Shown: positions 25-7,141 of the stretch, piece by piece
Layout of the letters: every line of letters starts with the position of its first letter
Position numbering within the stretch: the stretch's first letter is position 1
Virus record (IMG/VR): IMGVR_UViG_3300005911_000018
Span: 1-21,494 of that record
Direction: 5' to 3' (one strand)
DNA from: a virus
Length of the DNA: 21,494 nucleotides
The notes under the pieces: generated by a model
Databases searched by the model: none
What the model saw: only the letters and a program-made list of their open reading frames with translations
Told to the model about the DNA's origin: nothing
Made by a program: the position numbers and the translations under genes

Positions 25-363
25 ATGAAACGTATCATACTGAAAATAAAGATGTTAATTGATAAGCGAGGTACGACAAATTCTAAGCTTGCAAATGCTA
101 TTGGGTTAACAAGACAGTCTGTTTCGGATATGATGAATGGGAAAACGGCAATAAGTATTAAAAACCTAGAAAAAATTGCTAAACATTTTGAGGTTCCTAT
201 GGTACACTTCTTTCAGGATGGTGACGAAAAGCCCGCTTTAAGTGCAGCCAGTGAGCCACATACGGAGTATGGCAATTTACACGAGCAACTAAAATCAGAG
301 AATACACAATTAAAGGATCAGATTAAATTTTTACAGCATATAATCGATAAAGACTATAAGTAG
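25..363 (+). CDS. XRE-family helix-turn-helix regulator
   Basis: This 112-residue protein is a likely phage repressor or regulator. Residues about 5-60 form a Cro/CI-type helix-turn-helix: a 'SKLANAIGLTRQSVSDMMNG' segment holds the recognition helix and is followed by a conserved 'ISIKNLEKIAKHFEVP' helix. Residues about 81-110 are charged, with heptad-like Leu/Ile spacing (LHEQLKSENTQLKDQIKFL), so a short coiled coil probably dimerises it. It is transcribed away from, and converges on, the leftward late operon, as expected of an early/lysogeny module. No Shine-Dalgarno is visible; the leader is A/T-rich. The operator cannot be seen because only 24 bases lie upstream. Class assignment is firm; the role as lysogeny repressor is inferred. 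Confidence 0.85.
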   Translation: MKRIILKIKMLIDKRGTTNSKLANAIGLTRQSVSDMMNGKTAISIKNLEKIAKHFEVPMVHFFQDGDEKPALSAASEPHTEYGNLHEQLKSENTQLKDQIKFLQHIIDKDYK

Positions 364-3484: not shown

Positions 3485-3766
3485 TTATGTTAATGAGTAA
3501 TATTTATTTATCTTTCGAATTGTGGTTTTAAAAGGGAGTTCAGATTCATATTTTTTTACTTGATCTATTAAAACTTCGCTACCGGTGAATGCCACATATT
3601 TTTTATCGTTTCGTTTAATTTGAATAGTCAAATAATTTTTTTCTTTGTACTTGCTTTCCTTAATGTTAAAAGCTAGTAGTTCAATTTCTTCGTTAACTAT
3701 ATCATCAATCTTTATTTTATCGCCATCTAAAACGCTTTCTTTTGAAAAATCAGAAAATTTCTTCAC
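3485..3766 (-). CDS. DGR-associated small protein, beta-rich, possibly OB-fold-like
   Basis: A 93-residue protein whose GTG start overlaps the reverse transcriptase stop (GTGA), so it is probably made by translational coupling. It has an N-terminal amphipathic segment (MKKFSDFSKESVLDG), then alternating strands: IKIDDIVNEEIELLAFNI, YLTIQIKRNDKKYVAFTG, and a final TTIRKINKYYSL with a Lys/Tyr-rich end. A 'FTGSEVLIDQVKKY' helix joins the strands. Size, basic and aromatic content and strand order suggest a nucleic-acid-binding OB fold, which is my inference only. It does not look like Avd, the four-helix-bundle partner of the BPP-1 RT. By position it is the likely DGR accessory factor, perhaps chaperoning template RNA or cDNA. 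Confidence 0.6.
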   Translation of the reverse strand: MKKFSDFSKESVLDGDKIKIDDIVNEEIELLAFNIKESKYKEKNYLTIQIKRNDKKYVAFTGSEVLIDQVKKYESELPFKTTIRKINKYYSLT

Positions 3767-4815
3767 GCTACTTTTTTTAATGGATTGTTAATATTTTGAT
3801 CTTTACACGTATGTTTTACAATCCAACAAATTTCAGGATCGAAATATTTATTTTGTAAATTTTTACAATTAGCATATTTAAACCAACCGTAATAACTCAT
3901 AAGGCTATTTATGATTTCAGTCCATTTAATTTTTTGATGACTTTTAATTATTCGCTTTACAGATTTTATAAATTTTTGTTTTATTGATTTACGCAATAAA
4001 ATATAATTAGGAAAAAACCGATAACCCAAAAAATCAATGCCCCGTTTTTCGACTGGGAACACTTGCCAATTTTCTTTTAATTTCAATTTTAAATTATCTT
4101 TTAGATAGGTGCTAATTTCATTTTTTAGCTCGTGCAAATATTTTTTACTTGAATGTAAAATGACAATATCATCGCAATAGCGGAAATAATATTTAACTTT
4201 TTCTTTACAATTATGATCGAGCTTTGATAAATATAAATTGCCGAAATATTGACTTAAATAATTACCTATCGGGATTCCTTTTGTACTGAAAATAATTTCG
4301 TCAAGTAGCCATAAAAGATTTTTATCTTTAATTTGTTTTGAAATTATTTGTTGTAAAATTTTATTATCAATAGATGGGTAGTATTTTTTTACATCCATTT
4401 TAAGACAGTATTTTGTATTTTCTGTGTCTTTTAATGCCTTTTTTATTCGTTTAACACCATCGTGAATGCCGCGTCCTTTTATTGCTGAATACGTATCTCT
4501 AATTAATGATTTAAACCAAATAGGCTCAACAACCTGTATTATTGCATGATGAATAATTCGATCAGGAAAATAAGGGAGTTTATATATTTCCCTGACTTTT
4601 CCGTTGTCGGTTGTTCTTGTCATTATTTTATATTCAGAATTTTTGTACGTTTTATTTTTAAGCATCTCCTGAATTTTTTCAAAGTATTTTTCAGGGTTTT
4701 CATCAATCATTTTCACTTCGGTATAATGCTTTTTTCCTTTTCGCGCATTTTTATGCGCTAGTTCGATATTTGCTAAATCGTACACTTTTTCGTATAAATA
4801 ACCGTGTCTTTTCAT
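3763..4815 (-). CDS. DGR reverse transcriptase
   Basis: This enzyme copies the TR transcript into cDNA, misincorporating opposite template adenines, and so drives diversification of the target gene. At 350 residues it is normal for the family. Motifs in order: 'LPYFPDRIIHHAI' (80-92); 'LKMDVKKYYPSID' with catalytic Asp-141; 'GIPIGNYLSQYFGN' (180-193), the GxxxSQ motif characteristic of DGR RTs; 'YFRYCDDIVIL' with YCDD at 213-216, giving catalytic Asp-215 and Asp-216; 'RGIDFLGYRFFPN' (258-270); and a thumb-like 'SYYGWFKYANCKNL' (307-320). There is no maturase HNH or protease fusion. A GGAGGTG Shine-Dalgarno lies about 12 bases before the start, just inside the TR-downstream region. Confidence 0.95.
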   Translation of the reverse strand: MKRHGYLYEKVYDLANIELAHKNARKGKKHYTEVKMIDENPEKYFEKIQEMLKNKTYKNSEYKIMTRTTDNGKVREIYKLPYFPDRIIHHAIIQVVEPIWFKSLIRDTYSAIKGRGIHDGVKRIKKALKDTENTKYCLKMDVKKYYPSIDNKILQQIISKQIKDKNLLWLLDEIIFSTKGIPIGNYLSQYFGNLYLSKLDHNCKEKVKYYFRYCDDIVILHSSKKYLHELKNEISTYLKDNLKLKLKENWQVFPVEKRGIDFLGYRFFPNYILLRKSIKQKFIKSVKRIIKSHQKIKWTEIINSLMSYYGWFKYANCKNLQNKYFDPEICWIVKHTCKDQNINNPLKKVA

Positions 4816-4827
4816 GTTTGCTTATTT

Positions 4828-4834
4828 CACCTCC
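4828..4834 (-). promoter_or_regulatory. strong Shine-Dalgarno of the RT gene
   Basis: GGAGGTG on the minus strand lies 12 bases before the RT ATG at 4815. It sits downstream of the TR, so RT translation from a TR-RT transcript seems intended. Confidence 0.55.
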
Positions 4835-4884
4835 AATTTTCCGAGAATTAACCTACTAAACTGAATGAGGCATTTCTTTATTTT

Positions 4885-4898
4885 TTGCCAAGTGGCAA
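4885..4898 (-). repeat. short palindrome downstream of TR
   Basis: TTGCCA-AG-TGGCAA (6-bp arms, 2-base centre) lies 33 bases past the TR 3' end on the transcribed strand, between TR and RT. It could cap a structured template RNA or mark RNA processing. It has no T-run suited to termination of the RT-bound transcript. Its function is not known from sequence. Confidence 0.4.
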
Positions 4899-4930
4899 GG
4901 TTTTTAGTTTTGAAAAAACTATTTTTTATT

Positions 4931-5049
4931 AAGCATAGCTGACTGCCAATATTCGCATTGGCATTCGACCAAGTGTTATTCGCATTAACCGTAAAAGCGC
5001 CAGCTTTGCCACTGTTATTCGCATTACTGCCGACTAGAAAAACCCGCCT
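4931..5049 (-). ncRNA. DGR template repeat (TR)
   Basis: This is the invariant template copied by the RT. It aligns without gaps to 5102-5220 at a constant offset of 171 bases: 119 bases, 26 mismatches. On the minus strand 31 adenines fall in the repeat and 22 of them differ in VR (14 A-to-G, 7 A-to-T, 1 A-to-C). Nine codons in the VR-equivalent frame are AAY, the classic DGR template codon because mutation of its adenines samples many residues and avoids stops. The frame across 4822-5070 stays open (82 codons) only because it mirrors the target, so I treat it as template RNA, not a gene. The transcript probably runs on into the RT gene. Exact RNA ends cannot be seen. Confidence 0.93.
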
Positions 5050-5068
5050 GGTAAAAACTAAAAACCAC

Positions 5069-5074
5069 ATTATA
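5069..5074 (-). promoter_or_regulatory. possible -10-like element before TR
   Basis: A TATAAT hexamer on the minus strand lies 20 bases upstream of the TR start. No convincing -35 or Bacteroidetes TAnnTTTG element accompanies it, and the region is AT-rich, so this is weak. A dedicated TR promoter is plausible. Confidence 0.2.
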
Positions 5075-5080
5075 TTTTTA

Positions 5081-5097
5081 TTTATACACGTTATAAA
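5081..5097 (-). repeat. hairpin just downstream of VR
   Basis: TTTATA-ACGTG-TATAAA begins directly after the target stop codon, three bases beyond VR. DGRs such as BPP-1 carry a hairpin/cruciform at this place in the target DNA that promotes mutagenic homing. The stem here is only six A:T pairs, weaker than the BPP-1 element. Position is the main evidence. Confidence 0.5.
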
Positions 5098-6708
5098 TTA
5101 AAAGCAAAGCCGACCGCCAATCCTCGCACTGGCATACGACCAAGCGTACCTCGCATCAACCGAAAAAGCGCCAGCCGAGCCACCGCCATCCACATAACCG
5201 CCGACCCGAAAAACCCGCCAATAATCACGGCCCACTTCTGAATATTGATAGTAATAATCTGTTAGTTTTGTTGTTGAGCTTGCCCCTACTGTGGAAGGAA
5301 TAAAGCCGACTACATTTTCAATGTTAGCCGCATAATCTGAGCTTACACCTATATAAGTAGCATCACAAATATGTTTCATATTTACGCTTGTTTCGTCTGC
5401 AAAATAATCGGAATTATTCGTTACATAAATAGGCTGAGCGGCTTCGGTGCCAGTCCATCGGCCATCCCAGGTAATACCATCGGCCATTTTCCATACATTA
5501 CCGTAAAGGTTTTCAATGCCTCGGTAAGTCATATAATCGGTTAAATAACCTAAAGTTGTGCCGTTACTTACGGAATTACTACTATTAGCATCTGCCACCG
5601 ATAAGCCCGTTAAGCCTATATAACTATCGGCCGTCCAACCGCCACCGCTTAAATCAGTTCTACCCGCTCCTATCATACTTTGGCTATTAAAATCGGCATA
5701 CTCAACCAAATAAAGTAGTTGTATGGCTGAATGTAAATAGTAATCTAATTGTCGCCATCCTGTACCACGTTCGGCCGACATTGTTCGATATTCTACCCTT
5801 GTTTCGTAAGTTTTCGCCCAGGTGCCTGCAACGGATGTCATTTTATCGCCCGTAGTGTAAATTGAAGTTGGAATACTTGCCTTTGCACACATGGCAGATG
5901 TTGAGGCATCGTACATACCACCTTCGAATGCTCCTATATATCTATAATTAACTTCTTGCCCATCCTTCCAAAAAGCAGGGTGAAGCTCAAAGCCTGGTAA
6001 GTCGTATTTTGAAATATACCAACTGTTTAAAGTTGTAACTAAAGTGTGTTTATAATAAAATTTTGGAATTTCAACCATCACTTGCCCATCAGATCCCCCA
6101 AAATTTGCGGTGCCAATTTCGTAAACTTCGCCGCTTATTATAATATCTCTTTCGAGCGAAAGCGTGTTTAAATCGTCAATAGCTGTTATTATTGAATAAG
6201 TGGTGTCGGTTACATTTTTTATGTATTGCCCTGCTACTATTCCATCAGTAACAAAATCGGCGCCTGAATCAATTAATTTATAGGCGGTGGTTCCATCGGT
6301 GGTGTCGGTTACTGTTATGCTTGTGCCATCTTTATTAAGTGAATTATCTAAATCAATATAATAGTTAACCGTGCCATCGTCATTAAGCAAGCATCTGCGC
6401 ATATCGCTTTGAATAGGCAAATAGTCGTTGCCTGCACTTTGTGAGGTGGCTATGTCTACCAATGATCCTAAACGAGCATATACATCGGTTGAGCTATTCC
6501 AGCTTAAGCCTTGAAAAAACCCGTTAAAATCATATTTATCGGCTAAGTTTGTACTGTCGGCAGCTATACGAGCCGAGAGGTTTGCATCAGTCGCTTGGCG
6601 AGCTGTACGTTCTGTTGTAATTGAATTTTTACGTTCAGTGGTTTGCGCTTCGACTTCGCTCAGCGACCACAAAAAAGCGAATAGTAATATTAATAATATC
6701 TTTTTCAT
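5098..6708 (-). CDS. DGR target: diversified tail-fibre-like protein with C-type-lectin-fold end
   Basis: This 536-residue protein is the DGR variable protein, probably the receptor-binding or surface-display ligand. It starts with a signal-peptide-like segment (MKKILLILLFAFLW, likely cleavage after 'EVEA'), then a polar helical stretch (about 23-60) like tail-fibre stalks. The C-terminal third resembles the formylglycine-generating-enzyme/C-type lectin fold used by DGR targets: 'GNVWKMADG' near 405 and 'VFRVGG...SAGAF' near 499-515. Residues 497-536 are encoded by VR; 18 differ from the TR translation through adenine sites. The AGGAGGT site six bases before the ATG is among the strongest in the window and fixes the start. 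It lies 13 bases after a gene for another exported protein. Confidence 0.9.
   Translation of the reverse strand: MKKILLILLFAFLWSLSEVEAQTTERKNSITTERTARQATDANLSARIAADSTNLADKYDFNGFFQGLSWNSSTDVYARLGSLVDIATSQSAGNDYLPIQSDMRRCLLNDDGTVNYYIDLDNSLNKDGTSITVTDTTDGTTAYKLIDSGADFVTDGIVAGQYIKNVTDTTYSIITAIDDLNTLSLERDIIISGEVYEIGTANFGGSDGQVMVEIPKFYYKHTLVTTLNSWYISKYDLPGFELHPAFWKDGQEVNYRYIGAFEGGMYDASTSAMCAKASIPTSIYTTGDKMTSVAGTWAKTYETRVEYRTMSAERGTGWRQLDYYLHSAIQLLYLVEYADFNSQSMIGAGRTDLSGGGWTADSYIGLTGLSVADANSSNSVSNGTTLGYLTDYMTYRGIENLYGNVWKMADGITWDGRWTGTEAAQPIYVTNNSDYFADETSVNMKHICDATYIGVSSDYAANIENVVGFIPSTVGASSTTKLTDYYYQYSEVGRDYWRVFRVGGYVDGGGSAGAFSVDARYAWSYASARIGGRLCF
5102..5220 (-). repeat. DGR variable repeat (VR)
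   Basis: This is the 3' end of the target gene, replaced by mutagenised cDNA during homing. Compared with TR it has 22 changes at TR adenines plus four others (TR to VR on the coding strand: T-to-G at 5036, 4978 and 4951; C-to-T at 5021). It runs to within two bases of the stop codon, so nearly the whole last 40 residues are diversified. Invariant blocks include 'RVF', 'AGAF' and 'AWS'/'TWS' framework positions. Confidence 0.93.
6645..6670. repeat. palindromic intergenic-type repeat inside the DGR target signal peptide
   Basis: The segment GCTTCGACTTCGCTCAGCGACC belongs to the same 'CGACT(C/T)CGCTC' family found between genes elsewhere in the window. Here it lies inside the coding region and encodes residues W-S-L-S-E-V-E-A at the signal peptide cleavage region. 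Confidence 0.6.
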
Positions 6709-6721: not shown

Positions 6722-7141
6722 TTAATTTGGGTGAGCTGTTACCGTTAATGTACCGGCTGTGATCGTGCTTTTGGTAATCACTAAATACAGATATTTGAAT
6801 CCGGGCTTTTCGAGTACCTGGGCATCCTTATCGGTGCCGCTGAGTGCAATATCTACAGGATCGGAAGTATCATATTCAAATAAGGATGTTTGCCCGCTTA
6901 GGTCGTGAAATTTATATTCTAAAGTTCCGGCACCTGTTAAGCTGGTCCAATCCGCGATAAGGGTTAAATCATAGTTAGGGATCTGTACGTAAAAAGTAGT
7001 ATCGCTTCCTGCGATATCGCTCAAATCGAAGCTATCTAAAACGGTGGTTACCCGATTGGCATTTACCGAGCGTTGTGCATAGGCTTGTGGCGTAGCCAGG
7101 AATAAGCCTATAATTGCGATGATTAAAATTTTTGTTTTCAT
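6722..7141 (-). CDS. exported beta-rich protein, probably phage structural
   Basis: I do not recognise this 139-residue protein. It starts with a clear signal peptide (MKTKILIIAIIGLFLATPQA, probable cleavage after 'AYA' before Gln-23). The mature part is strongly beta-like, with Thr/Ser/Asp-rich strands (FYVQIPNYDLTLIADW, YLYLVITKSTITAGTLTVTA). It lies between the large tail protein and the DGR target. Position suggests a tail-tip or fibre-attachment role, yet the signal peptide suggests export by the host. Both this and the target carry signal peptides, so they may act together at the envelope. No Shine-Dalgarno precedes it. Confidence 0.55.
   Translation of the reverse strand: MKTKILIIAIIGLFLATPQAYAQRSVNANRVTTVLDSFDLSDIAGSDTTFYVQIPNYDLTLIADWTSLTGAGTLEYKFHDLSGQTSLFEYDTSDPVDIALSGTDKDAQVLEKPGFKYLYLVITKSTITAGTLTVTAHPN

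Follow-up and report, generated by a model that had tools for sequence, protein, structure and literature searches.

An Avd-less diversity-generating retroelement in a viral genome, with a candidate OB-fold accessory protein and a structured TR-RT spacer RNA

The viral record IMGVR_UViG_3300005911_000018 comprises 21,494 bases, and the window analysed here spans this whole stretch. An earlier note, made from the sequence alone, had described in it a complete diversity-generating retroelement (DGR) arranged as one leftward block, and all the core DGR features that were tested hold (Table 1). The target gene, the VR, the TR, the reverse transcriptase (RT) and an accessory gene, whose product is here called ACC, do lie together on the (-) strand, but the hairpin that had been counted in the same block is weak and is not conserved. 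On this strand, the target gene is preceded by structural genes (portal, head protease, capsid, connectors, major tail protein, and tape measure), and a weakly holin-like gene and an amidase come after the DGR. A repressor-like HTH gene at 25-363 (+), divergent from the late genes, hints at a temperate phage. The attribution to a Bacteroidetes host is not established: the portal and capsid proteins match at about 30% identity to sequences from many different hosts, so no host is proposed. An 82-aa open frame at 4822-5070 (-) spans the TR and the spacer; because this region consists of the TR and a conserved structured RNA, the frame is probably not a gene.

Table 1. Features of the DGR locus, with positions in the window.
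Feature	Positions	Strand	Description and evidence
Target gene	5098..6708	(-)	536 aa, tail protein with the VR at its C-terminus; ORF, PHROG 5302, TaqVP profile match
VR	5102..5220	(-)	Repeat pair with the TR; 22/26 differences at TR adenines; varies between the window and L003
Putative IMH	5102..5120	(-)	Last 19 nt of the VR
Weak A/T stem-loop after the VR	5080..5098	(-)	ATTTATA-ACGTG-TATAAAT; probably not a BPP-1-type element
TR	4931..5049	(-)	Terminal bases, the putative IMH*, form part of the closing stem of the spacer RNA; identical in L003
Structured TR-RT spacer RNA	4807..4949	(-)	Rfam RT-17, covariation, fold
DGR RT	3763..4815	(-)	350 aa; Pfam, PHROG, motifs
ACC accessory protein	3485..3766	(-)	93 aa; GTG start overlaps the stop codon of the RT; predicted fold is OB-like; distinct from Avd

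The TR and the VR align over 119 nt without gaps, as originally reported, and differ at 26 positions: 22 fall at the 31 adenines of the TR and four at the 88 other sites (Fisher p = 4e-13). The adenine sites alter 18 residues of the target, and a C-to-T change adds one, which brings the residue differences to 19 overall. When the whole record was searched, the VR was the sole other copy of the TR; it ends 4 nt short of the end of the target gene. The RT matches Pfam RVT_1 (E 1.7e-18) and PHROG 1423 (E 1.5e-115), and it carries the motifs that had been read from its translation, GIPIGNYLSQ from residue 180 (the GxxxSQ motif) and YCDD at 213. Relatives have TR/VR pairs.

Two further viral contigs, L003 and L004, match the window almost perfectly. 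L004 shows a single difference over 6,881 bases, and its VR is identical. The proposed check for VR variation at positions matching TR adenines was run at the level of contigs, with a positive outcome: L003 differs from the window at 26 of 5,523 shared bases, and 24 of these differences are found in the 119-nt VR (chance p = 3e-38 for this clustering), 19 of them at TR adenines. The TR, the RT, ACC and the lysis genes are unchanged between the two. The other two differences, 116 and 125 nt upstream of the VR, are within the target gene; these sole differences outside the VR, at window positions 5336 and 5345, both alter residues (V/A and D/G). Between these near-identical contigs, the VR turns over faster than the rest of the genome, and this comparison of contigs, rather than of reads, indicates that the DGR has recently been active.

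The VRs of the window and L003, otherwise very different, have in common the adenine differences at VR positions 1, 106, 110, and 114. Because they are common to both, these four may be constant features of the repeat ends or the IMH and not products of new mutagenesis. Position 1 and the last 19 nt of the VR are identical in the window and L003 yet unlike the TR, and the relatives L190 and L191 show the same pattern at the VR end, constant between VRs and unlike the TR. Such a constant 3' end would fit an IMH spared from overwriting, and the context of an A followed by a G could explain part of it: since about 90% of the adenines that precede a G are read as G in this family, A106 and A110 may be context effects.

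TR adenines before G read G in the VR in 91% of cases in the ACC set and in 96% in the others, far above other contexts; this excess reflects either an RT that is strongly biased by context or glycine being favoured by selection. Among the adenine changes of ACC-type pairs, A-to-G is the most frequent, which matches the predominance of dC misincorporation by the BPP-1 RT in E. coli. Outside adenines, a second kind of change recurs. In 85 ACC-type TR/VR pairs, with the ends left out, 29 of the 36 non-adenine mismatches are T-to-G. Similarly, T-to-G accounts for 9/12 non-adenine polymorphisms in groups with an identical TR and different VRs (p = 4e-7), and for four of the five non-adenine VR changes between the window and L003. 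It is enriched before A (p = 3e-4). Drift of the TR was ruled out as the cause, since T-to-G persists among VRs with identical TRs, and template slippage is unsupported, the next base being mostly A rather than G. Codon selection may lie behind these changes. Sister DGRs without ACC show T-to-G too (9/17), and it is therefore not tied to ACC. Taken from these alignments, the lineage appears to have a minor T-to-G signature besides A-to-N, which, if true, would show how these RTs err beyond adenine.

The target matches the tail proteins of PHROG 5302 (E 6e-77). A profile built from the C-terminal halves of its relatives gave one convincing match to a solved structure, 5VF4 (E 2.6e-5), which is TaqVP, a DGR variable protein with a C-type-lectin fold. 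This match is weak in the VR part, a second stretch is not significant, and the predicted structure of the target is too poor to confirm the fold. By the profile evidence, the C-terminal half of the target is related to TaqVP. The N-terminus of the target is signal-peptide-like, as are those of the targets of L008, L009, L086, and L138. The gene upstream (6722-7141) opens likewise, and in this gene, the target and the targets of the four relatives the signal-like sequence ends in ..A-Q. Starts of this kind are surprising in tail proteins, which are put together in the cytoplasm.

The spacer between the TR and the RT contains a match to Rfam RT-17 (RF03020) at 4814-4902, with 47.3 bits vs. a threshold of 40.4; among the spacers of relatives, RT-17 was above threshold in 6 of the 16 tested. 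The closing stem, in which 4930-4935 pairs with 4819-4824, links the TR end to the bases directly before the RT start, and a hairpin is located at 4885-4898. In 32 relatives, whose spacers were aligned by fitting them to the model, a procedure that favours pairing, 89.8% of cells pair, and 17/22 pairs are changed on both sides, compared with 5 to 9 pairs in slid controls. Compensating changes in the closing stem are also found in the raw sequences (GCTTAT/ATAAGC vs. GCCTTA/TAAGGC in L178). The single-sequence fold of the spacer alone is not significant (z -1.07). The hairpin previously assigned to the region just after the VR fared poorly: its 7-bp stem is all A/T, its shuffle p is about 0.04, it is unconserved in the close relatives L005, L007, and L008, and no conserved stem was found at this place among about 25 relatives. 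Judged by covariation, the conserved structured element is the TR-RT spacer RNA and not a post-VR hairpin. The RT-17 spacer found here links this Rfam RNA to DGRs.

The accessory gene is present in the block, behind the RT, but its product is not Avd. Avd was absent from the window record with profiles PF22296 and PF05635 (a BPP-1 control was positive for PF22296), and the bAvd profile gave one match, below the cut-off, on 26 other ACC-bearing records. The ACC of the window has no family match in Pfam, PHROGs or NCBIfam and nothing credible in the PDB by sequence; the ACC family as a whole found no credible family in Pfam. PHROG 19665 (function unknown) matches 13 of 20 ACC members. Relatives of ACC, gathered from viral and genome contigs, amount to 102 distinct proteins: 90 are encoded behind a DGR RT, seven before the RT, two in fused frames, and three in contigs without an RT. 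ACC thus adjoins the RT in 97 of the 102, in addition to the two frames fused to RT sequence, and 77 of the 90 genes behind the RT overlap it or begin within 30 nt. In the upstream cases that were checked (L101, L109, L157, L164, L165, and L174), the TR begins 337-390 nt behind the VR, which leaves room for ACC between the two; in BPP-1, avd sits in the same place as the upstream ACC of these six loci.

An intact RT-ACC fusion, in one 421-aa frame, is present in L020 and L021, two contigs of identical sequence. In a MAG, the frame L110:3326-4255 joins the RT start in frame to ACC, with the catalytic part missing, and looks like a deletion, in either a decayed cassette or a misassembly. At L088:4914-5192 and L089:4914-5192, the RT is missing and the TR runs into the second half of ACC. 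The TR/ACC junction is identical in these two contigs and their VRs differ; it looks as if they share one RT deletion, with some doubt left by many homopolymer indels. A frameshift in the VR of L088 was taken as a sequencing error, as the comparison with L089 shows many such indels.

The distribution of ACC on the RT tree can be explained by 5 changes, vs. 35.6 with shuffled labels, and ACC is present on either side of the midpoint root. Because of these few changes and this distribution, ACC looks old in the lineage, although its share of the tree is inflated, many loci having been found via ACC itself. The predicted structure of ACC (pLDDT 88.6) has the element order b-b-b-a-b-b, which is the OB order, and most of the folds closest to it are OB domains (RuvB-like DII, HIN, RPA), the matches being weak (E of at least 0.06). 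From this model, ACC is apparently an OB-fold protein that travels with this DGR branch, and perhaps a single-strand nucleic-acid binder. Gene order, co-occurrence, one fusion and the predicted fold suggest that ACC most likely does the job that Avd does elsewhere, as a partner of the RT/RNA/cDNA complex. The known DGR accessories are given in a review as Avd, HRDC, and MSL (PMC10053308); the review also mentions one further accessory, which was described by Wu et al. 2018 and belongs to no Pfam family, and ACC may be that protein. We found no description of an OB-like DGR accessory, though the Wu 2018 survey, considered here through its mention in the review, may include one.

The locus shows the anatomy of a DGR, a spacer RNA that covaries and, between genomes that are nearly identical, change that is centred on adenines and confined to the VR, and we regard it as nearly certain that the window holds a phage DGR in working order, lacking Avd. 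The TR and the VR could be suspected of arising from the duplication of one region during assembly, a concern already raised in the earlier note, as the two copies are 171 bases apart in a metagenome contig. This explanation is excluded, its probability being practically nil, because relatives of different sequence hold the same TR/VR pair at the same place; about 85 distinct relatives have the pair, in sequences of their own and with the same adenine bias, and two further contigs assemble the same structure. It is also very improbable that the DGR is dead or dormant and that the TR/VR differences are left over from activity in the past. Decay does occur in this group, since L088 and L089 have visibly lost the RT; in the window, however, the RT, ACC and the spacer RNA are intact, and two genomes that are identical elsewhere differ at 24 VR sites.

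The role of ACC leaves more room for doubt. It could be a phage gene that merely happens to follow the RT (a tail chaperone, say, or a general single-strand binder) and has no role in mutagenic homing, which we consider unlikely. Sister DGRs carry other small genes at the same place, which would suit a bystander; against this, the family is found almost exclusively beside DGR RTs, on either side and also fused to the RT, and is spread over deep RT branches, including that of the archaeal virus ANMV-1. Moreover, its sole RT-less loci are one related contig pair resembling RT deletions. We give a slightly smaller chance to the proposal that export carries the variable protein to the surface of the host cell, where it would be displayed, and that it is not a part of the virion tail. 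Signal peptides are frequent in cellular DGR targets (PMC8144416), and this proposal would account for the signal-peptide-like N-termini of the target, of the targets of four relatives and of the upstream gene, but the match to a PHROG 5302 tail protein, the position of the gene inside the tail/lysis operon and the other relatives without such a signal all favour a tail protein.

In a working DGR with a tail target, the RT would copy an RNA that holds the TR and the structured spacer, misreading adenines, and the mutated cDNA would replace the VR at the 3' end of the tail-protein gene. This replacement would vary a binding surface of C-type-lectin-like form, which most likely serves to attach to the host, and ACC, in Avd's place, would act as partner in the RT/RNA/cDNA complex. 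The transfer of cDNA, the location in the tail and the binding of a receptor are proposed here by analogy with known DGRs. More generally, we suggest, tentatively and with somewhat less than even confidence, that ACC is a widespread and undescribed OB-fold family which replaces Avd in a deeply branching lineage of DGRs from phages and archaeal viruses, that it works with RT-17 RNA and in some cases forms a fusion with the RT, and that the RTs of this lineage also err regularly by placing dC opposite template U (T-to-G in the VR), mostly at a U before A. The kind of element is already known; less familiar are the ACC family and its fusion to the RT, the use of an RT-17 RNA as spacer, and the T-to-G signature. 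The partner protein of DGR cDNA synthesis is known in detail for Avd alone, and a small OB-like protein that is tied to a whole DGR lineage, is naturally fused to the RT in one case and comes with a spacer RNA that covaries would provide a compact alternative system to reconstitute.

Compared with the DGR of BPP-1 (mtd-avd-TR-brt), the window shares a phage tail target with a 3' VR, a TR before the RT and adenine-centred change, as well as IMH/IMH*-like ends and a structured spacer RNA. This RNA belongs to Rfam Phage_DGR in BPP-1 and to another family, RT-17, in the window; in addition, BPP-1 has avd before the TR, whereas the window has no Avd and has ACC after the RT. DGRs of the BPP-1 type have a GC-rich hairpin/cruciform just after the VR, with a GRNA loop, which affects efficiency and does not define DGRs (PMC3240598); the window instead has an A/T-only stem with an ACGTG loop. 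The DGRs of crAss-like phages have the order target-TR-RT, with avd absent (PMC7290462). They share with the window RTs that are 46-53% identical, the order target-VR-TR-RT, the lack of Avd and a tail target. At the sensitivity used, the ACC relatives in the phage collection were limited to two archaeal-virus records, none of them crAss-like. The DGR of the archaeal virus ANMV-1 also has the order target-TR-RT, and a relative of ACC, AJP62065.1 ("hypothetical protein"), is encoded right behind an RT that is very distant from that of the window on the tree. An Avd has been labelled in ANMV-1 (PMC4372165), a label that could not be assigned to AJP62065.1. Finally, TaqVP of Thermus aquaticus (PDB 5VF4) is a sequence-detectable relative of the C-terminal half of the target; its solved C-type-lectin fold is of the FGE subtype, and the target of the window has a longer N-terminal region.
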